Positions 11,178 to 44,229 of a stretch of 64,000 nucleotides of DNA are shown here, piece by piece. The stretch lies in assembly GCA_902363825.1 (NCBI GenBank), contig CABJBK010000002.1:124001-188000 (forward strand), given 5' to 3'. The DNA is from Lachnospiraceae bacterium (GTDB taxonomy: Bacteria; Bacillota; Clostridia; Lachnospirales; Lachnospiraceae). The notes under the pieces are model-generated. The model was not told where the DNA came from and made no database searches. It saw nothing but the letters and a program-made list of their open reading frames with translations. Positions within the stretch are counted from its first letter, which is position 1; each line of letters opens with the position of its first letter. The position numbers were made by a program, and so were the translations under genes.

Positions 11178-12791
11178 TTATTCCGCTTCACGGATTGCCT
11201 TGCGGACCGGAAGGATGCATCCCGGAGATACGGACAGTTCATCCAGTCCCATCTGAAGGAAGCGTTCCGTCAGTTCCGTATCCGCGCCCAGCTCTCCACA
11301 GATGCCTGCCCAGATGCCTGCCGCATGCGCATTTTTAACTACGCGTTCGATCAGGCGGAGCACTGCCTCGTGATGTGGATTGTAGAAGCGGTCCAGCTTG
11401 CTGTTCTGCCTGTCGATCGCCAGTGTATACTGTGTCAGATCATTGGTTCCGATACTGAAAAAGTCTACTTCTTTCGCAAGTTCGTCACTCATCACTGCTG
11501 CCGCCGGTGTCTCGATCATGATTCCCTGTTCTACTTCACCGAACGGAATGTTCTCCGCAGTCAGTTCCGCTTTTACTTCCGCAACGATCTCTTTGATCTG
11601 GCGTACCTCATCCACGGAAATGATCATCGGATACATGATCGCGATATTTCCGTAATTGCTTGCGCGGAACAGCGCGCGTAACTGTGTTTTGAAAATTTCC
11701 GGCTGTGTCAGACAGATACGGATCGCACGGTAGCCAAGTGCCGGATTGTCTTCTTTTCCGAGATTGAAATAATCTACCTGCTTGTCTGCTCCGATGTCTA
11801 ACGTACGGATGATGACTTTTTTGCCCGCCATGGTCTCTGCCACTTTGCGGTATACGGCAAACTGTTCTTCTTCTGTTGGGAAATCATCTTTTTCCAGATA
11901 CAGAAATTCGCTTCGGAACAGTCCGATTCCGCCCGCGTCATTTTCCAGTACGCTTGCAAGATCGGATACATTTCCGATATTGGCATAAAGATTGATCTTC
12001 TGTCCGCTCTTTGTCACATTCTCTTTTCCTTTTAAGGTGAGCAGCAGTTCCTTCTGTTCTTCGTCTTTCTTTTTCTTTTCCTCATATTCGGCAAGTGTCG
12101 CTGCATCCGGATCTACAATGATCTTTCCTGCATAGCCATCCAGGATCGCCATCTTTCCATTCCAGGAAGTCTCGATATCCACACTGATGAGCGCCGGGAT
12201 ACCCATGGTTCTCGCAAGAATTGCCGTATGGGAGTTTGCGGAGCCAAGATGTGTTACAAATCCGAGAAGTTTGCTCTTATCCATCTGTACCGTTTCACTT
12301 GGTGCAAGATCTTCCGCAACGATGATAACCGGATCTTCTCCGATATCGGATGCGGTATCATTTCCGTTTAAGATTGTGATCACGCGTTCGGAAATATCCT
12401 TGACATCCACGGAACGTGCCTTGAAATATTCATCATCCATATCCGCGAACATTTTCGCGAAATTATCACCGGTCTGCGCAACCGCGTATTCCGCGTTTAC
12501 ATTCTGTCCTTCGATCAGGTTATGGATGGAATCAATGTAATCGCCATCATCCAACATCATGGCATGTACATCGAAGATCTGTGCATTAACTTCGCCGACT
12601 TCCTTGAGTGCCTTCTCATACAGTGCATGCAGCTGATCGATCGCTTTTTGTTTCGCGTCCTCAAAACGCGCTACCTCCGCCTGGGTATCTTCGATCTTTC
12701 TTCGTGATACCTGGTTTTCCGTCTTTGCGAACACACGAACTTTTCCGATCGCGATTCCATGGAAAACTTTCTTTCCTTCTCTAATTTCCAT
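11178..12791 (-). CDS. ptsI: PTS enzyme I (phosphoenolpyruvate--protein phosphotransferase)
   Basis: 537 residues, slightly shorter than the usual 570 but complete at both ends. The phosphorylated histidine is His188 in GSANSHTAILARTMGIPAL. The C-terminal PEP-binding half shows GGIGLFRSEFLYLE, the GTNDLTQYTLAIDR signature and the active-site cysteine in GICGELGAD. It takes phosphate from PEP and passes it to HPr in the cytosol. The gene follows an HPr gene by 17 bases in an operon headed by a LicT-type antiterminator, an unusual setting for a general PTS enzyme. Confidence 0.96.
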   Translation of the reverse strand: MEIREGKKVFHGIAIGKVRVFAKTENQVSRRKIEDTQAEVARFEDAKQKAIDQLHALYEKALKEVGEVNAQIFDVHAMMLDDGDYIDSIHNLIEGQNVNAEYAVAQTGDNFAKMFADMDDEYFKARSVDVKDISERVITILNGNDTASDIGEDPVIIVAEDLAPSETVQMDKSKLLGFVTHLGSANSHTAILARTMGIPALISVDIETSWNGKMAILDGYAGKIIVDPDAATLAEYEEKKKKDEEQKELLLTLKGKENVTKSGQKINLYANIGNVSDLASVLENDAGGIGLFRSEFLYLEKDDFPTEEEQFAVYRKVAETMAGKKVIIRTLDIGADKQVDYFNLGKEDNPALGYRAIRICLTQPEIFKTQLRALFRASNYGNIAIMYPMIISVDEVRQIKEIVAEVKAELTAENIPFGEVEQGIMIETPAAAVMSDELAKEVDFFSIGTNDLTQYTLAIDRQNSKLDRFYNPHHEAVLRLIERVVKNAHAAGIWAGICGELGADTELTERFLQMGLDELSVSPGCILPVRKAIREAE

Positions 12792-12808: not shown

Positions 12809-13066
12809 TTACAGATTTGCTTCAAAAAACTGTTTTAAAGCTTCGATCGCTTTTTCTTCATCAGCGCCTTCTGCGGATACGGTTACCTCGTCTCCACATT
12901 TGATTCCCATGCCCATAACTGCCATCAGTCTTGTAACATCTGCTTCTTTTCCTTTTGCTGCAAGTGTGATCTTTGACTCAAAAGCTTTTGCTTCTTTTGC
13001 GAGCATTCCTGCCGGTCTTGCGTGAATTCCGATTTCGTCCTTGATTACATAATTGAATGATACCAT
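12809..13066 (-). CDS. ptsH: HPr phosphocarrier protein with catalytic His15 but Arg in place of Ser46
   Basis: 85 residues. The active site is intact: EIGIHARPAGML places the phosphorylated His at 15 and Arg at 17. The second site, where Firmicute HPr has a serine phosphorylated by HPr kinase (usually KSIMGVMSL), reads VTRLMAVMGMGI, so residue 46 is Arg (codon at 12929-12931) and residue 52 is Gly. The protein should carry phosphate from EI to EIIA but should not be a substrate for HPrK/P or form the P-Ser-HPr:CcpA complex. It is flanked by EIIBA and EI. Compare the His-less relative at 38657-38893. Confidence 0.95.
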   Translation of the reverse strand: MVSFNYVIKDEIGIHARPAGMLAKEAKAFESKITLAAKGKEADVTRLMAVMGMGIKCGDEVTVSAEGADEEKAIEALKQFFEANL

Positions 13067-13099: not shown

Positions 13100-13852
13100 T
13101 TATAATATTTTTATTAATGTTTCTCCTGCTTCCACAGTTGGCAAAGCAGTTGGAACAATGTTTCCATATTGATCTGAATTGGTGACGATCACAGCCGTCG
13201 TTGTTGCGTAACCGGCGGATCGCAATGCTTCAAGATCCACTTCAAGGAGCAGCTCTCCGGTTTTTATCCGGTCGCCCTGTTTCTTTTTGGGGGAAAATCC
13301 CGTTCCGCTTAACTGAACGGTGTCCACACCGACATGGATCAGTATCTCGGGGCCCGCTTCTGCCGTCAGGCTGATCGCGTGTCCCGTCGAAAAAAATGTG
13401 GTGATCGTTCCATCTGCCGGCGCATAAATTTTTCCATCCGATGGAAGGATCGCGGCTCCCTGACCAAGCACGCCGCTTGCGAACGCTTCGTCTTCGATCT
13501 GTGAAAGAGCGATCACCCGGCCGGATACCGGCGCCGCAATGTGGATTTCCTTTTCTCCCGGCTGTCCCGGCTTTTGCCTGGTCCCCGGTTCTTCTCCGGG
13601 AACGCCCGCACAGCTTACAAGTTCGGCAAAAACTTCTTTTACCTGACTGCCGATCATGATCTGCAGCTGTCCGCCGCGCCAGAACGTTCCGGCGATTCCA
13701 TCCATGGCGTTTAACGCATCCAGATCCGCTTTTTTATCATCCTTTAATTCCAGACGCAGCCTTGTCACACAGTGTGTCATATGGATGATATTGTCTTTTC
13801 CACCGATGTGAGAAAGAATGTTTTCTGCCAACGCGGCATACTTACGTTCCAT
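13100..13852 (-). CDS. PTS EIIB-EIIA fusion, glucose/beta-glucoside family, without an EIIC domain
   Basis: 250 residues from the ATG at 13852 (GGAGGGG upstream). Residues 1-80 are an EIIB domain with the phosphorylated cysteine Cys28 in HMTHCVTRLRLEL. A Pro/Gly/Glu linker (about 83-101) leads to an EIIA-Glc (Crr-like) domain with His158 in STGHAISL and the phosphorylated His173 in EILIHVGVDTVQL. BglP-type proteins are B-C-A; here the membrane EIIC transport domain is missing and nothing in the window supplies it. The gene lies just after a RAT/terminator element and before HPr and EI. Confidence 0.92.
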   Translation of the reverse strand: MERKYAALAENILSHIGGKDNIIHMTHCVTRLRLELKDDKKADLDALNAMDGIAGTFWRGGQLQIMIGSQVKEVFAELVSCAGVPGEEPGTRQKPGQPGEKEIHIAAPVSGRVIALSQIEDEAFASGVLGQGAAILPSDGKIYAPADGTITTFFSTGHAISLTAEAGPEILIHVGVDTVQLSGTGFSPKKKQGDRIKTGELLLEVDLEALRSAGYATTTAVIVTNSDQYGNIVPTALPTVEAGETLIKIL

Positions 13853-13901
13853 AGTTTTCCCCTCCATTCCCAAAATTATTTTTCTTCTTACTGAATATAG
13901 A

Positions 13902-37572: not shown

Positions 37573-38595
37573 ATGCGTAAAAAAATATTGTCTGTTCTCG
37601 GCATTCTCGTTTTCGCGGGGCTGATCTATGGTGTCTACCGGAATTCTTCTGTCGAAGAGACCGATACCTCTATCTCCAAAACAGGATTTTATTTTGATAC
37701 TGTGATCAAGATCACGCTCTATAATTCGGATGATGCCGACTACCTCGATGGATGTTTTGCATTGGCGGACAAATATGAGAATCTGCTCAGTGCCACGATC
37801 GAATCAAGCGATGTTTCAAAGATCAACGCCGCGAACGGATCTCCGGTCACCGTCTCCCCCGAGACAGCAGAACTGATCCGGGAAGGGATCGATTACGGCA
37901 CTTTAAGCAGCGGACAGTTTGACATCACGATCGGAAAGCTTTCCTCTCTCTGGGATTTTTCCGAAAATCCGGGTATCGTACCGGATGCCGATGCCATCGC
38001 CTCTGCGGTATCCACCATCAACTATCAGAACATAACGGTGTCCGGAAATACCGTTACCTTAAATGATCCAGACGAAGCGATCGACCTCGGCGGCATTGCC
38101 AAAGGCTTCATCGCCGATAAAATGAAGGCCTACTTGAACGAGAACGGGATCACAAGCGGCATTATCAATCTTGGCGGCAACGTTTTAATCATTGGGCCAA
38201 AAGAGGACGGTTCTGACTACCGGATCGGCATCCAAAAGCCATTCTCGGATACCGGAACCGCACTTGCCACCGTATCCATCCCGGATGGTACCGTAGTCAG
38301 CTCCGGCGTCTATGAACGGTATTTCAAAAAAGACGGTGTGTTGTATCACCATCTTTTGAATCCGAAAACCGGATATCCTTATGAAAATGATCTGACCGGC
38401 GTCACGATCATCTGCTCCCGTTCTGTTGACGGGGACGGACTGAGCACCACCTGTTTTTCCCTCGGACTGGAAGACGGAATGAAACTGATCGAATCACTTC
38501 CTGACACCGAAGCAATCTTTATCACGTCCGATGGAGAGCTTCATACTTCTTCCGGTATCGGAACCACCATTCCGTTTCAGATGATGCAGGAATAA
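37573..38595 (+). CDS. apbE: FAD:protein FMN transferase (ApbE), membrane-anchored
   Basis: 340 residues: an N-terminal hydrophobic anchor (about 5-22, no lipobox cysteine) and the ApbE domain with YFDTVIKITLYN, IDLGGIAKGFIADKM, INLGGNVLIIGP and HLLNPKTGYPYEND. ApbE uses FAD to attach FMN through a phosphoester bond to threonine in S/T-G-A-T motifs on exported proteins. RnfG and RnfD, encoded just beyond (39176-44158), both carry such motifs, so they are the likely clients. Confidence 0.95.
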   Translation: MRKKILSVLGILVFAGLIYGVYRNSSVEETDTSISKTGFYFDTVIKITLYNSDDADYLDGCFALADKYENLLSATIESSDVSKINAANGSPVTVSPETAELIREGIDYGTLSSGQFDITIGKLSSLWDFSENPGIVPDADAIASAVSTINYQNITVSGNTVTLNDPDEAIDLGGIAKGFIADKMKAYLNENGITSGIINLGGNVLIIGPKEDGSDYRIGIQKPFSDTGTALATVSIPDGTVVSSGVYERYFKKDGVLYHHLLNPKTGYPYENDLTGVTIICSRSVDGDGLSTTCFSLGLEDGMKLIESLPDTEAIFITSDGELHTSSGIGTTIPFQMMQE

Positions 38596-38611
38596 CAAAA
38601 AACGCTGTTAC

Positions 38612-38647
38612 AAAAAGGACTTTCACCCAAAGGTAAAAGTCCTTTTT
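38612..38647. terminator. Terminator after apbE, shared with the convergent HPr-like gene
   Basis: AAAAAGGACTTT (38612-38623) pairs with AAAGTCCTTTTT (38636-38647) around a 12-base loop, with T runs on both strands. Confidence 0.85.
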
Positions 38648-38656
38648 TGATACAGT

Positions 38657-38893
38657 CTATTCTACCACATAGTCCTGTATATTCTGAATGATCTTTCCCG
38701 CCTCAGCGTCATCCGCATGTATGGATAACTGCGCACACTTTTTCAGATTCAGGCTCATCACGCCGATCATTGACTTTGCATCCACACATCCGCGTCCGGA
38801 TTCGAGATCAAAGTTGCAGTTAAATTTTTGCAGAATCTGAATAAATTTTCCCACTTTTTCCGGGGAATTCAATAATACATTCACCTTTTTCAT
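38657..38893 (-). CDS. HPr-like (Crh-like) protein: Ser46 region kept, catalytic His15 missing
   Basis: 78 residues from the ATG at 38893; a TTG at 38902 with AGGAAAAGG just upstream could add three. AKSMIGVMSLNL reproduces the regulatory site of HPr (Ser41 here equals Ser46). The catalytic region reads LLNSPEKVGKF: aligned without gaps from Ser46, His15 becomes Ser10 and Arg17 becomes Glu12. It therefore cannot carry phosphate from EI but could be phosphorylated by HPr kinase, like Bacillus Crh. It has its own promoter. It is the complement of the Ser46-less HPr at 12809-13066. Confidence 0.88.
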   Translation of the reverse strand: MKKVNVLLNSPEKVGKFIQILQKFNCNFDLESGRGCVDAKSMIGVMSLNLKKCAQLSIHADDAEAGKIIQNIQDYVVE

Positions 38894-38934
38894 AACATCC
38901 AATACCCTTTTCCTACATAATTCATTACTTAATA

Positions 38935-38963
38935 AATATACACTGAAACGTATCTATTTACAA
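38935..38963 (-). promoter_or_regulatory. Promoter of the HPr-like gene
   Basis: Minus strand TTGTAA (38958-38963), 17 bases, TATATT (38935-38940). The rest of the gap up to 39124 holds no gene; a near-palindrome TGAAAACATTTTCA at 39075-39088 is only loosely like a CcpA site. Confidence 0.65.
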
Positions 38964-39124
38964 CCACTGCTCAAAGATTTGTCAGTATGGCAATATTTTC
39001 CGATAAATATGTGCTTTTCTGACATTTTTCCCGTTTTTTCTGCATGTTTTTGGAAAGTGATGTTGTCATATGTATGAAAACATTTTCATATATTCCACTT
39101 TTTTCAGTCACATTGCTGTAATAC

Positions 39125-39158
39125 AAAAGAGGAATGCACTTTCATGCATCCCTCTTTT
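39125..39158 (-). terminator. Terminator of the rnf operon
   Basis: On the minus strand AAAAGAGGGATGCA pairs with TGCATTCCTCTTTT around a six-base loop; one G:T pair. It lies 17 bases after the rnfB stop. Confidence 0.8.
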
Positions 39159-39175
39159 TCGTTTTCCAATTTTTA

Positions 39176-39967
39176 CTATAAAATGATCTTCTTCGGGCAC
39201 TTCTGCGCACATACGCCACAGCCGGTACACTTTGTCTGATCAATATAAGCAACATTGTCAATCACATGAACCGCGTCGCTCGGGCAGTTCTTCTCACAGA
39301 GATGACAGCCGATACATCCGACAGAGCATGCTTTCATAACATCTTTACCTTTATCTTTGGAACTGCACTGTACCAGATGTTTTGCATCATACGGTACCAG
39401 TTCGATCAAATGTTTCGGACATGCCGCAACACATTTACCACAGGCTTTACATACTTCTTTGTCAACCTTTGCGATACCGTCTACGATATGGATCGCGTCA
39501 AACGGACAAGCCTTTACACAGCTGCCATATCCAAGACAGCCATAGTTACAGGATTTTGGTCCGCCATTCGGTACGAATGCCATTGCCGCGCAATCTTCCA
39601 CACCGGTATACTCATAATCACGATTTGCCTTTTCACAGTTTCCTGCACATTTTACAAAGGCAACCTGTTTTGCGCCTTCTTCTGCCTTGACGCCCATGAT
39701 CTCACCAACTTTAGCGGCAACCGGAGCTCCACCGACCGGACACTGATTGACCGGAGCTTCACCCTTTACAATTGCAGCAGCAAGACCGGAACATCCGGCA
39801 TAACCACAACCACCACAGTTGTTTCCCGGAAGAACGCCAAGAATGGCTTCTTCTCTCTCATCTACTTCTACTTTGAACTTTTCTCCGGCGATTCCAAGGA
39901 AAAATCCAATAAGAATACCTACGCATCCAACTACAATGGCTGCAGTAATAATCGCTGTTACGCTCAT
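39176..39967 (-). CDS. rnfB: Rnf complex subunit B (polyferredoxin)
   Basis: 263 residues. One N-terminal membrane helix is followed by the RnfB cluster domain (NNCGGCGYAGCSGLAAAIV and NQCPVGG) and three or four further 4Fe-4S motifs: YGSCVKACP, CKACGKCVAACP, CIGCHLCEKNCP and CTGCGVCAQKCP. It takes electrons from reduced ferredoxin and feeds the Rnf membrane complex. It is the last gene of the operon, order C-D-G-E-A-B, as in Acetobacterium and clostridia. Confidence 0.96.
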   Translation of the reverse strand: MSVTAIITAAIVVGCVGILIGFFLGIAGEKFKVEVDEREEAILGVLPGNNCGGCGYAGCSGLAAAIVKGEAPVNQCPVGGAPVAAKVGEIMGVKAEEGAKQVAFVKCAGNCEKANRDYEYTGVEDCAAMAFVPNGGPKSCNYGCLGYGSCVKACPFDAIHIVDGIAKVDKEVCKACGKCVAACPKHLIELVPYDAKHLVQCSSKDKGKDVMKACSVGCIGCHLCEKNCPSDAVHVIDNVAYIDQTKCTGCGVCAQKCPKKIIL

Positions 39968-39980
39968 TTTATTTTCCCTC

Positions 39981-40556
39981 CTAAATCATACCTGAAAATC
40001 CCATAAATGCGATTGACATCAGGCAAGCTGTGATCAAAACGATCGCTGTTCCCTGAAATGTCTTCGGGATATCATTATATTCAATCTTTTCACGAAGTCC
40101 AGCCATAAGTACAATAGCAATGAAAAATCCGAATGCTGTTGCAAAACCGTTGATCACGCTTTCCAAGATACCATATTCCTTTGTAACGTTGGTCAGGCAG
40201 ACACCAAGTACCGCACAGTTTGTTGTGATAAGTGGCAGATATACGCCCAATGACTCATACAATGGAGGCATTGATTTTTTCAAAAACATTTCTACAAACT
40301 GAACGAGTGCCGCAATCACAAGGATGTATACGATTGTCTTCAGATAATCAATATTTAACGGTAACAGGATAAACTTGTAAATCAGTGCCGTGATAAAGGA
40401 CGAGATCGTAATTACGAAAATTACCGCTCCGCCCATGCCGGCAGCTGTCTCTGTTTTCTTGGATACACCTAAGAACGGACAGATACCAAGGAACTGACTT
40501 AATACAACGTTGTTTACGATTGCAGCTCCAACTGCAAGTAAAATTAATTCTTTCAT
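39981..40556 (-). CDS. rnfA: Rnf complex subunit A
   Basis: 191 residues with six membrane segments; NNVVLSQFLGICPFLGVSKK near the N terminus and GLREKIEYNDIPKTFQGTAI near the C terminus are family hallmarks. The conserved cysteine in LGICPF and that in TTNCAVLGVCL are thought to hold a membrane-embedded 2Fe-2S cluster with RnfE. Inner membrane subunit. Confidence 0.96.
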   Translation of the reverse strand: MKELILLAVGAAIVNNVVLSQFLGICPFLGVSKKTETAAGMGGAVIFVITISSFITALIYKFILLPLNIDYLKTIVYILVIAALVQFVEMFLKKSMPPLYESLGVYLPLITTNCAVLGVCLTNVTKEYGILESVINGFATAFGFFIAIVLMAGLREKIEYNDIPKTFQGTAIVLITACLMSIAFMGFSGMI

Positions 40557-40570
40557 CTGTATCTATCCCC

Positions 40571-41266
40571 CTATTCTGCTTTTTTGCCGGTACACATTGC
40601 AGACTGACCACAGGATGCACAATCTCCTGTCAGGCAGCCAGACGGCTCTGCAAGCGGTTTTCCCTTTGCATCCATCTTCTTACGGATGATGTTCATTCCT
40701 GCTACGAGGAAAGAAAGTACAAGGAATGCTCCAGGTGCCATTACGAAAATTGTGATCGGTGTAAACCAGCTTAAAGAAAGTACCTGGAAACCGAAAAGCT
40801 GTCCGGCGCCAAGGAACTCTCTGACAAGACCGATACTGGTAAGTCCTACGGTAAATCCAAGTCCCATTCCAAGTCCGTCAAAGATAGACGGTACTACCGG
40901 GTTCTTGGATGCATAGCTTTCCGCACGTCCAAGGATGATACAGTTTACTACGATAAGTGGAATGTAAACACCAAGGGATGCTGACAGGCTCGGCGTATAA
41001 GCTTCCATGATAAACTGTACCACGGTAACCAGTGACGCAACGATCACGATGTATGCCGGCATACGGACACCGCCCGGGATCACCTTACGGAATGCTGAGA
41101 TCAAAAGGTTTGATAAAATAAGTACTACGGTTGTGGAAAGTCCCATTCCGAGTCCGTTGATCGCTGAGGATGTAACCGCAAGTGTCGGACACATACCAAG
41201 CATCAGTACGAAGGTCGGGTTTTCCTTAATAATACCGTTATACAGACGTTCTACATTTTTATTCAT
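40571..41266 (-). CDS. rnfE: Rnf complex subunit E with a cysteine-rich C-terminal tail
   Basis: 231 residues with six membrane segments, homologous to RnfA: NPTFVLMLGMCPTLAVT and IVVNCIILGRAESYA. After the last helix there is a tail of about 35 residues containing GCLTGDCASCGQSAMC, four cysteines within 16 residues, not needed for the membrane core. The start shares one base with the rnfG stop. Confidence 0.95.
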   Translation of the reverse strand: MNKNVERLYNGIIKENPTFVLMLGMCPTLAVTSSAINGLGMGLSTTVVLILSNLLISAFRKVIPGGVRMPAYIVIVASLVTVVQFIMEAYTPSLSASLGVYIPLIVVNCIILGRAESYASKNPVVPSIFDGLGMGLGFTVGLTSIGLVREFLGAGQLFGFQVLSLSWFTPITIFVMAPGAFLVLSFLVAGMNIIRKKMDAKGKPLAEPSGCLTGDCASCGQSAMCTGKKAE

Positions 41267-41874
41267 TACTGTGCACCTCCCAAATCACTGTTGAAATATG
41301 CAAGTGCAGCATTTACACCATTTGCCATTGCTCTGGAAGTAATGGTCGCACCAGAGATGGACTCGATCTGATTATCAGAAGAAGGTGCCTGTTTTACTAC
41401 TTCAAAAGAATCTACTTTTTTGTTCTGGAACTGTGAGTAGAAATCTTCATCTTCCGCTTTCATACCAAGACCAGGTGTCTCACTGATACTTGTAATGGAA
41501 TAACCGTTTACGGTTCCATCGCTCTGGATACCAACGGAAAATGTGATGTTTGCCTGGCTGGCATCTTTGGCTGTTACGGTAATAACATAACCGATGACAT
41601 TGCCGCTTGCGTCCAGTGCTTCCTGTGCATCATCAACAGAATCTTCATATCCCTGTGCCACAACTGTTTCGGTAGCGGCATCTTTGTCAAATCCGTCTAC
41701 TGCCTGGAAAGAATCCGCATCTTCAAACACTTTCTGATATGCTGCCTGTGTTGTAGCCAGGTTTGCAGCTTCGATCGGTGCCTTTGTAATTTCATGTACG
41801 AGTCCGAGGATCAGACCGAGAACCAATGTGAAAGCCGTTAAAATAAGGGCATCATGAACAATTTTCTTATTCAT
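41266..41874 (-). CDS. rnfG: Rnf complex subunit G (covalent FMN protein)
   Basis: 202 residues: an N-terminal membrane anchor (about 9-28) and an extracytoplasmic FMN-binding domain. The flavinylation motif SGATITSRAM places FMN on the threonine. ETPGLGMKAEDEDF is the other family signature. ApbE encoded nearby should attach the flavin. It overlaps rnfD by 8 bases. Confidence 0.96.
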   Translation of the reverse strand: MNKKIVHDALILTAFTLVLGLILGLVHEITKAPIEAANLATTQAAYQKVFEDADSFQAVDGFDKDAATETVVAQGYEDSVDDAQEALDASGNVIGYVITVTAKDASQANITFSVGIQSDGTVNGYSITSISETPGLGMKAEDEDFYSQFQNKKVDSFEVVKQAPSSDNQIESISGATITSRAMANGVNAALAYFNSDLGGAQ

Positions 41875-42808
41875 TCTTCTTTCCCTCCTTTACCTGACCA
41901 AATGCTCTTGGTATTGTAAATTTCTCAATGATCGGTACAAACAGGTTGCATAAGATGATCGAGAAGGATACGCCTTCTGCGTTTGCACCACAGACACGGA
42001 AAAGTCCGGTCAGGATTCCAAGACAGATACCGAAAATGATCTGTCCTCTCGGTGTGATCGGTGATGTTACATAATCGGTTGCCATGAAGAATGCACCAAG
42101 CATCAGACCACCACCGCAAAGCTCTGCTACGATGTAATTCCAGTCAAAGCCATGTCCGCCAAATAACAGCAGGAAGATCACAAATGTTACGATGTAAGTT
42201 CCCGGGATGCGAAGATCAATGACGCCCATGAGGATCAAAAAGATCGCTCCGATCAGGATGCAGATCACAGATGTCTCACCGATGGTTCCAGGGATACGTC
42301 CGATCAGCATGTCCATAACATTTACTTCTTCACCGTTTCTGATCTGTGCAAGCGGAGTTGCCCCGGTCACACCATCATAAGCGAATTTTGTCATATCTGC
42401 CGCAAACGCGATCAGAAGGAAACATCTTGCGCCAAGCGCCGGGTTCATGAAGTTCTGTCCCAGTCCGCCAAACATCATTTTTACGATCGCGATCGCGAAC
42501 ACACCGCCGATCACTGCTTCCCACCAAGGAAGTGTCGGCGGAAGGTTCAGTGCCAGGAGAAGTCCGGTCACAACCGCACTCAGGTCATTTATTGTACTCT
42601 TTTTATGTATTATTTTCTCAAAAACCCATTCTGTAGCCACACAGCTTGCAATGGTTACCAGAATCAGGACCAAAGCATGAAGTCCGAAGTTAATGATACC
42701 AAAAACGCTGGCTGGTAATAATGCGATAATCACATACAACATGATCTTGCTTGTTGTATCTTTGTCCCGCACATGTGGTGATGAAGAAACATGATATAAA
42801 TCACTCAC
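41867..42808 (-). CDS. rnfD: Rnf complex subunit D (covalent FMN, membrane)
   Basis: 313 residues with eight to ten membrane segments. The motif DGVTGATPLAQIR carries the threonine for covalent FMN. The N-terminal sequence VSSSPHVRDKDTTSKIMLYV is typical. RnfD is the main candidate for the ion path of the complex. Confidence 0.96.
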   Translation of the reverse strand: MSDLYHVSSSPHVRDKDTTSKIMLYVIIALLPASVFGIINFGLHALVLILVTIASCVATEWVFEKIIHKKSTINDLSAVVTGLLLALNLPPTLPWWEAVIGGVFAIAIVKMMFGGLGQNFMNPALGARCFLLIAFAADMTKFAYDGVTGATPLAQIRNGEEVNVMDMLIGRIPGTIGETSVICILIGAIFLILMGVIDLRIPGTYIVTFVIFLLLFGGHGFDWNYIVAELCGGGLMLGAFFMATDYVTSPITPRGQIIFGICLGILTGLFRVCGANAEGVSFSIILCNLFVPIIEKFTIPRAFGQVKEGKKNE

Positions 42809-42838
42809 AAATATCCACCTCTTTCTATTGTATTTAAG

Positions 42839-44158
42839 TTATTTCTTTTTTCTTTCTGCGATAATCGTCTTTTTCATTGTCTTGATGGACTGTGCAAGCT
42901 GTCTCTTTGCCGGGCAGATAAAACTGCAGCTGCCGCATTCAACACATTCCATACCATTCCATTTTTCAAACATATCGGACAGACCGTTGTTTGCGAATTT
43001 GGCAAGTCTGGATGGAACTAACAGCTCCGGACAGGCCTCTACGCAGCGTCCACAGTTGATACACGGAGATTCCGCGAACTCTGCCACTTCGTCTTTGGTC
43101 AGACATAACAGCGCAGATGTTGTTTTGGTCGTCGGGATATTAAGATCAAACAGGGCAAATCCCATCATAGGACCACCTGCAATGATCTTTTCCGGCTGCT
43201 CTTTGAATCCGCCTGCCGCATCCAGAAGTTCCTGGAAATTCATACCGATACTGAAACGGAAATTACAAGGTTCGCTCACTGCGTCACCTGTTACGGTAAA
43301 GATTCTTTCCATAACCGGTTTACCAAGTTTTACTGCATTGTAAACAGAAACAAGTGTCTCTACGTTGTCTACGACACAGCCTGCATCTGCAGGAAGCATC
43401 TTGGAATTGATCGCGCGTCCTGTGACAGCGTAGATCAGCTGACGCTCACCACCCTGCGGGTACTTTGTCATCAGTTCCGCTACTTCCATACGCGGTTCGT
43501 CTTTTACCAGTTCTTTTAACTTTTCAATACAATCCGGTTTGTTGTTCTCTACACCGAACACACCCTTTGCATTGTCAAACAGCTTGAGTGCGATGCGCAT
43601 ACCTTCTACTAATTTTTCCGGATCTTCCATCATTCTGCGGTAATCCGATGTCAGATAAGGCTCACATTCCGCGCAGTTTGCAATGACATAGTCGATCTTG
43701 TCCGGTTCTTTCGGTGATAATTTTACATGGGTCGGGAAACCTGCGCCACCCATACCTACAACACCTGCGTTTTTAATACGCTCAATGATCTCTTCTTTTG
43801 AAAGTGAATCAATGTCGTCAACCGGTGTATAGGAAACCTCCTTGTATTCACCGTCATTTTCAATGATAATGGAATTCACCATATCACCTACCGCAACGCG
43901 GCGCGGCTCGATTGCTTTTACCGTTCCGGATACCGATGAAAATATCGGAGACGATACAAAGCCTCCTGCTTCTGCAATCATCTGGCCTTTCAATACCGTA
44001 TCGCCAACAGCAACAATCGGTTTTGCCGGTGCCCCGATATGCTGAGATACCGGATAGACCAGTTCGCCTTTGGGTAATAATTCACGTGTCGGCGTATCTT
44101 TGGATAAGTCCTTTCCTTCATAGGGATGGACACCGCCTTTAAATGTCAATAAACCCAT
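42839..44158 (-). CDS. rnfC: Rnf complex subunit C (NADH-binding, 4Fe-4S)
   Basis: 439 residues from the ATG at 44158; a GTG at 44200 in frame has a weaker case. The protein opens MGLLTFKGGVHPYEGKDL. The nucleotide- and FMN-binding segment is VVGMGGAGFPTHVKL, the SLBB domain follows, and two cluster motifs are CINCGRCVEACP and CVECGSCSFICP. RnfC passes electrons to NAD+ as ferredoxin is oxidised. First gene of the operon. Confidence 0.96.
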   Translation of the reverse strand: MGLLTFKGGVHPYEGKDLSKDTPTRELLPKGELVYPVSQHIGAPAKPIVAVGDTVLKGQMIAEAGGFVSSPIFSSVSGTVKAIEPRRVAVGDMVNSIIIENDGEYKEVSYTPVDDIDSLSKEEIIERIKNAGVVGMGGAGFPTHVKLSPKEPDKIDYVIANCAECEPYLTSDYRRMMEDPEKLVEGMRIALKLFDNAKGVFGVENNKPDCIEKLKELVKDEPRMEVAELMTKYPQGGERQLIYAVTGRAINSKMLPADAGCVVDNVETLVSVYNAVKLGKPVMERIFTVTGDAVSEPCNFRFSIGMNFQELLDAAGGFKEQPEKIIAGGPMMGFALFDLNIPTTKTTSALLCLTKDEVAEFAESPCINCGRCVEACPELLVPSRLAKFANNGLSDMFEKWNGMECVECGSCSFICPAKRQLAQSIKTMKKTIIAERKKK

Positions 44159-44229
44159 TTTTCGTGCCCCACTTTCTCTTAAAATTGTTATCTCTTTCAC
44201 TTGTACAATACCACTGTACTAACGTAATA

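Follow-up and report, generated by a model that had tools for sequence, protein, structure and literature searches.

The open reading frame at positions 38657-38902 on the reverse strand of the window, i.e., the whole stretch of 64,000 nucleotides of Lachnospiraceae DNA that was analysed, was confirmed as an HPr-like gene (Table 1). The TTG at 38902 was considered a less likely start than the ATG at 38893, because the open reading frames of the relatives begin at the codon equivalent to this ATG, which is ATG in the locus of an uncultured Lachnospiraceae MAG (L001, genome G001) and GTG in the locus of Roseburia hominis An869 (L002, genome G002). Besides G001 and G002, the set examined contained no genome of the relatives' genus. 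In the window, rnfCDGEAB is followed by the HPr-like gene and then by the convergent apbE. The order of the rnf genes and the HPr-like gene is conserved in L001 and L002; beyond these genes, L002 has a different content, with feoA (by Pfam) and feoB (by recognition). A pattern scan of the genome contigs for the locus returned 11 pattern matches, two of which were confirmed, and the Rnf linkage of the HPr-like gene was seen at three loci of one genus only.

Table 1. Positions of the features around the HPr-like gene and at the ptsH locus (window coordinates)
Feature	Position	Strand	Remarks
ptsI (enzyme I)	11178..12791	-	by recognition
ptsH	12809-13066	-	GIHARP (His15 and Arg17 kept), Arg at position 46; PF00381 domain
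PTS EIIBA protein	13100..13873	-	upstream of ptsH; PF00358, PF00367
apbE (FMN transferase)	37573..38595	+	convergent neighbour; PF02424, 286 bits
Hairpin 3' of the HPr-like gene	38600..38665	-	towards convergent apbE; -26 kcal/mol, z -5.6
HPr-like gene	38657..38893	-	78 aa, start ATG 38893; Ser46 kept, His15 and Arg17 absent
Promoter-like site TTGTAA-17-TATATT	38935..38963	-	consensus match only
Palindrome TGAAAATGTTTTCA	39075-39088		cre-like with changed centre; between rnfB and the HPr-like gene
Hairpin between rnfB and the HPr-like gene	39115..39180	-	terminator-like; -21.4 kcal/mol, z -5.5
rnfB	39176..39967	-	first gene upstream of the HPr-like gene; FeS and Fer4 domains; name by recognition
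Remaining rnf genes	39981..44200	-	A, E, G and D by recognition only
rnfC	42839-44200	-	Pfam RnfC_N

The HPr-like gene probably forms its own transcription unit, as its surroundings suggest. At the place equivalent to the promoter-like site of the window, L001 and L002 have TTGAAA-17-TATATT inside a conserved block, GTGTATATTTATTAA, and the pattern TTGWAA-17-TATATT is common to all three loci at one place; in each region, shuffled sequences contained about as many promoter-like sites on average. Co-transcription with the rnf genes was considered less likely in view of the hairpin behind rnfB and the separate promoter-like site, even though the pattern scan for terminators called none in this stretch of the window and counted neither hairpin. 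In L001 and L002, the same scan called no coding-strand terminator behind rnfB. The cre-like palindrome was not found at the equivalent place in L001 or L002, and 10 of 100 shuffles reached the number of cre-like matches of the window. An Rfam scan of the window gave nothing at the gathering score.

Residues, fold and selection

The PTS-HPr domain of Pfam (PF00381) matches the protein at 41.7 bits against a gathering score of 23. The NCBIfam model of the HPr subfamily PtsH (TIGR01003) gave 33.2 bits, which is below its cut-off of 47.9 bits. The conserved serine, Ser41 of the 78 residues, corresponds to Ser46 of HPr and lies within an intact AKSxxGVMSL motif. A gapless count back from this serine puts Ser10 at the place of His15 and Glu12 at the place of Arg17; the alignment of residue 14 of the Crh structure 1mu4 onto residue 9 of the model, of which the end-points were compared, fits this count. 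In a MAFFT alignment, a five-residue gap falls over the IHARP loop of the HPr-like protein, which indicates that part of the His loop was also lost, beyond the two residues. The predicted structure (mean pLDDT 92.2) shows the topology of an HPr, helix A spanning residues 11-22, and the best solved relatives are themselves HPrs, 3le1 by Foldseek and 1ka5 by sequence. The mechanism by which HPr carries phosphate through His15 and Arg17 is established, and no carriage for the PTS is expected of the short protein because His15, Arg17 and part of the loop are missing. Thus, the protein resembles HPr (PtsH) in its PF00381 domain and fold and differs from it in these losses and in its score below the TIGR01003 cut-off; by the known mechanism, it would not take up phosphate from enzyme I.

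Compared with its counterpart in L001, the gene shows 12, 3 and 37 differences at codon positions 1, 2 and 3, with a dN of 0.09 and a saturated dS; for L002, dN is 0.17 and dS 2.7. These comparisons show that purifying selection acts on the gene. The Rnf-linked copies (window 38660-38893, L001 and L002) all have Cys26 and Cys53, and most of the thiI-linked copies have Pro at position 53. A first protein search gave 12 matches.

The window encodes a further HPr, the ptsH product, whose position 46 was read as Arg because GIHARP is followed by VTRLMAVM. The counterpart of ptsI in the syntenic contig G001:C3 matches TIGR01417 at 615 bits, the model having been run on that copy. The preliminary description had proposed that the HPr-like protein keeps the serine site, with Ser for His15 and Glu for Arg17, and that the ptsH product is complementary to it; the gapless count and the predicted fold bear out the former, and the residues of the ptsH product the latter.

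The short clade and the other HPr proteins

A profile of the Rnf-linked proteins (A1) found a relative of about 76 amino acids, typically MKTVQISLNSIDKVKSFVNDITKFDYDFDLVSGRYVIDAKSIMGIFSLDLSKPI, in all 31 genomes of the family set, i.e., 30 Lachnospiraceae genomes and G001 (E<=1.1e-16). Among 299 Lachnospiraceae genomes, 279 had a match at E<=1e-14. Scores of the Rnf type (158-170 bits) were reached in G001 and G002 only, the next best score being 87.7, and a copy of this type was not found in the other 297. The locus of the short protein is adjoined by mtaB in all 30 genomes for which it was fetched and by thiI in 28 of them; of the 46 short proteins obtained from these 31 genomes, which is a lower bound, 30 have the mtaB flank and 28 the thiI flank, one per genome. 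In a tree of 243 rows that was built on 88 columns, and in which 131 of the 240 inner branches are open, the 87 short rows form one side of a branch with a local support of 90, and the three Rnf-linked rows group together with a support of 99. Ser46 is kept in all 87 short rows of the inventory, and the gapless count found neither His15 nor Arg17 in any of 85 short proteins (0/85 for each). The conservation extends beyond the serine to the entire DAKSIMGIFSLDLSK stretch. The window protein shares the His loop that is five residues shorter, the kept Ser46 and the placement in this one clade, and by its sequence it is a genus-specific, Rnf-adjacent duplicate from the short HPr clade. Short proteins were also fetched from 27 genomes of the 40-genome class sample. 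Across the phylum, a further profile (A3) matched 13 of 299 genomes at E<=1e-12, which means that the short clade is not phylum-wide at this threshold. A wider protein search scored at least 7999 candidates, all at E<=1e-6, and among the best 120 of them seven were named, five as "HPr family phosphocarrier protein".

Positions 15, 17 and 46 were scored in the family set, with all 103 of the listed PF00381 matches at E<=1e-10 and 35 of the 47 weaker ones taken in; the counts of short proteins are lower bounds because more PF00381 matches exist than those listed. The full-length HPrs linked to ptsI have R, K, A, G or T at position 46 in 23 of 28 cases and Ser in five. In the whiA-linked proteins, which were present in 28 of the 31 genomes, Ser46 is kept and His15 absent in 28/28. 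Within the same genomes, position 46 is thus free to vary in the PTS-linked HPr, and proteins that have lost His15 retain the serine. Dual-site proteins, with both His15 and Ser46, numbered 35 and were found in 24 of the 31 genomes; both half-types with no dual-site protein detected were seen in four (G008, G010, G012 and G027) and, in the class set, in G306 and G307. The class set of 40 genomes leaves out G002 and one fused match (G339:C57:196757), and one of its members, G209, is also in the family sample. Here, the ptsI-linked HPrs keep Ser46 in 7/12 and are without it in 5/12, and 2/7 whiA-linked proteins have both His15 and Ser46. The comparison of the family and class counts indicates that the split of the two sites is a trend of the Lachnospiraceae and is clean only in a minority of their genomes. 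From the same counts, the Crh-like protein linked to whiA would be no less natural a Ser-carrying partner of ptsH than any short protein. In G023, ptsH (Arg46) and ptsI are followed on the same strand by a short Ser-only gene (L162/L024, G023:C27:9417-11900).

The two genus relatives hold several HPr paralogues. The PF00381 search gave seven matches in G001 and six in G002, and the inventory, which leaves out a weak profile match in G002 (C61:3488), comprises at least eight HPr-domain proteins in G001, including the thiI-linked copy from the A1 profile, and at least six in G002. There are two ptsH genes with Arg46 in G001 and one in G002; both genomes encode a whiA-linked Crh-like protein with Glu15, a protein with KKHDNP..AKSIMGIM and short Ser-only proteins. 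Both also encode a glmM-linked protein with His15, Arg17 and Ser46, whose AKSVLSVL is a candidate HprK site. An exclusive two-protein split was rejected on account of this dual-site protein in G001 and G002. Given the dual-site and whiA-linked proteins in these genomes, the Rnf-linked protein is neither the sole carrier of the serine nor an obvious partner of ptsH.

Across the loci, the glmM/leuA-linked paralogue with His15, Arg17 and Ser46 (AKSVLSVLGACVK; L006, L009 and relatives) adjoins glmM in eight Lachnospiraceae cases among those fetched, and we know of no role for it. In L010, L011 and their relatives, KKHDNP replaces GIHARP together with AKSIMGIM, and position 15 among the look-alikes is H, C, Y or N.

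Co-occurrence with HprK, enzyme I and CcpA

The hprK gene was found above the cut-off (PF07475) in 31/31 Lachnospiraceae and 34/40 class genomes; its absences are unsure because the PF07475 control gave no signal for B. subtilis, which has hprK. Over the 71 genomes for which co-occurrence was scored, with enzyme I called present at E<=1e-60, the short protein occurred in 58, of which 57 had hprK, 37 had enzyme I and 21 had no enzyme I match. It was associated with hprK (Fisher p 5e-4, kinship ignored). No association was obtained between its presence and that of enzyme I (p 0.12, kinship ignored), which was counted against a role as HprK substrate. A Ser46 protein was present in all 65 hprK-positive genomes, and four of the 71 had neither an HPr-domain protein nor hprK. 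The Ser46 protein without an hprK match in G322 and G331, the latter with the short protein only, was likewise counted against such a role. HPrs with His15 and Arg17 and without Ser46 were found in 31 of the 71 genomes, and each of these 31 had an enzyme I match. In G302, G312, G314, G331, G332 and G338, the short protein was the sole HPr-domain protein found and enzyme I was not matched; five of these six had hprK, in two pieces in G302, and none was matched in the 1.2-Mb assembly G331. An HPr with His15, Arg17 and Ser46 occurred without an enzyme I match (E<=1e-60) in G303, G308, G309, G317, G318, G321, G330 and G335.

The ccpA equivalog was above its cut-off in none of the 31 family and none of the 40 class genomes, and in 2 of 14 control genomes. 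The best scores were 250 bits in the family set and 358 and 342 bits in G329 and G339; it is possible that this model is tuned to Bacilli. This makes the classical CcpA unlikely as the effector. The preliminary description had suggested testing for co-occurrence with hprK and ccpA: that with hprK holds throughout the family set, and the proposed CcpA output has become doubtful. C. phytofermentans, also of the Lachnospiraceae, has LacI/GalR regulators with cre-like operators (PMC5171806), and given these regulators the partner may still be CcpA-like.

Possible role of the short HPr

The window protein is best read as a regulator that would be a substrate of HprK independently of the PTS and would act through an effector other than the classical CcpA. 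We consider it rather probable that the short proteins are regulatory HPrs that would not carry phosphate for the PTS and whose Ser41 (Ser46) would be phosphorylated by HprK, in a clade beside mtaB and thiI with the Rnf-linked duplicate probably transcribed alone. This reading draws on the sequence, the predicted fold, the clade, the synteny, the absence of His15 and Arg17, the co-occurrence with hprK and the persistence where enzyme I was not detected: at high energy, HprK would most likely phosphorylate Ser41, and the P-Ser form would have an altered binding to a partner that is presumably not the classical CcpA.

That the protein is simply a Crh, whose P-Ser form would act as corepressor of a CcpA-like regulator of the LacI family, is unlikely in our estimation. 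As in Crh of Bacillus, the HPr fold and Ser46 are kept, His15 is absent, the protein coexists with a PTS HPr and it is a likely substrate of HprK. The family has LacI-family regulators with cre-like operators (PMC5171806), and a Crh-like protein of C. cellulolyticum, Ccel_0806, was proposed to act on CcpA homologues in a species said to be without an HPr ortholog (PMC3656788). By its description, Ccel_0806 resembles the window protein in being a clostridial HPr-like protein; a solved HPr-family chain from C. cellulolyticum is 7ff5. However, the short proteins are about five residues shorter than Crh before helix A and form a clade separate from the whiA-linked proteins in the tree, and a distinct Crh-like protein is already linked to whiA in 28 of the 31 genomes. 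Position 17 is Glu in the window protein (Asp, Asn or others in the clade) and Arg in none of the 85 short proteins scored, and the known complexes have Arg17 in contact with CcpA. The crh gene of Bacillus adjoins whiA (yvcL), whereas the window copy lies between rnfB and apbE and the clade beside mtaB and thiI; in G001 and G002, it is another HPr protein that adjoins whiA. The lack of a ccpA equivalog above the cut-off in the family set points in the same direction. With NF010354/PRK13782, which we take to be the Crh model, the protein scored 33.1 bits against a curated score of 123, and two whiA-linked proteins were also below it (93 and 85 bits).

The preliminary description had favoured a clean division of labour, in which the ptsH product of the window would be the transporter carrier and the HPr-like protein its dedicated regulatory half, and had named a bifunctional HPr in the genome as the finding that would speak against it. 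The loss of Ser46 from most ptsI-linked HPrs of the family and its retention on proteins without His15 uphold the idea that the sites are sorted, as do the complementary residues of the two window proteins, the gene arrangement in G023 and the four family genomes in which no dual-site HPr was detected. A dedicated pair is nevertheless quite improbable: by sequence, G001 and G002 carry the dual-site glmM-linked protein and more Ser-only proteins among their many HPr-domain proteins, dual-site proteins occur in most of the family set, no Rnf-type copy was detected in 297 of the 299 family genomes and the short clade persists where enzyme I was undetected. We regard it as very improbable that the serine has only a structural role as a helix cap and that the protein serves as a binding domain independent of HprK or as a sink for this kinase. 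Bacteria that have no hprK retain Ser46 as well, as in the HPr of E. coli, possibly as a helix cap, which was counted against the HprK-substrate reading, and the protein has no known target. Yet, in the same genomes, the ptsI-linked HPrs mostly have other residues in place of this serine, the conserved stretch of the short proteins extends beyond it, and hprK accompanies them in 57 of 58 genomes.

The name Crh is given to HPr-like proteins that lack His15 and act in catabolite repression (PMC3526391), and the HPr of C. difficile, with His14 and a phosphorylated Ser45, represents the dual form in Clostridia (PMC8730811). In searches of the open-licence literature, no title or abstract dealt with the short clade, with the loss of Ser46 in Lachnospiraceae HPr or with an Rnf-linked HPr. 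This short Ser-only branch is widespread in gut Clostridia and, going by these searches, has not been studied.

The usual picture of catabolite control in gut Clostridia is based on Bacillus and comprises one bifunctional HPr, HprK and CcpA. The Lachnospiraceae examined retain hprK and Ser-only HPrs despite a PTS HPr that is mostly without the HprK site, and have no CcpA equivalog above the cut-off; this retention, even where enzyme I was not detected, raises the question of what the target of HprK is in this family. We tentatively propose, at somewhat less than even confidence, that the Clostridia have a PTS-independent line of HprK, in which a short Ser-only HPr would signal the energy state through P-Ser to an effector other than CcpA, alongside a PTS HPr that in Lachnospiraceae mostly lacks Ser46. 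If so, the Rnf-linked copy would couple the P-Ser signal to energy-converting metabolism; for a role of this duplicate near Rnf, in redox or energy metabolism, its position is only a hint. Among the short Ser-only proteins, a further subtype (DAKSILGVLSLDL and similar) adjoins a large conserved protein in L014, L158, L161, L162, L155 and L245.
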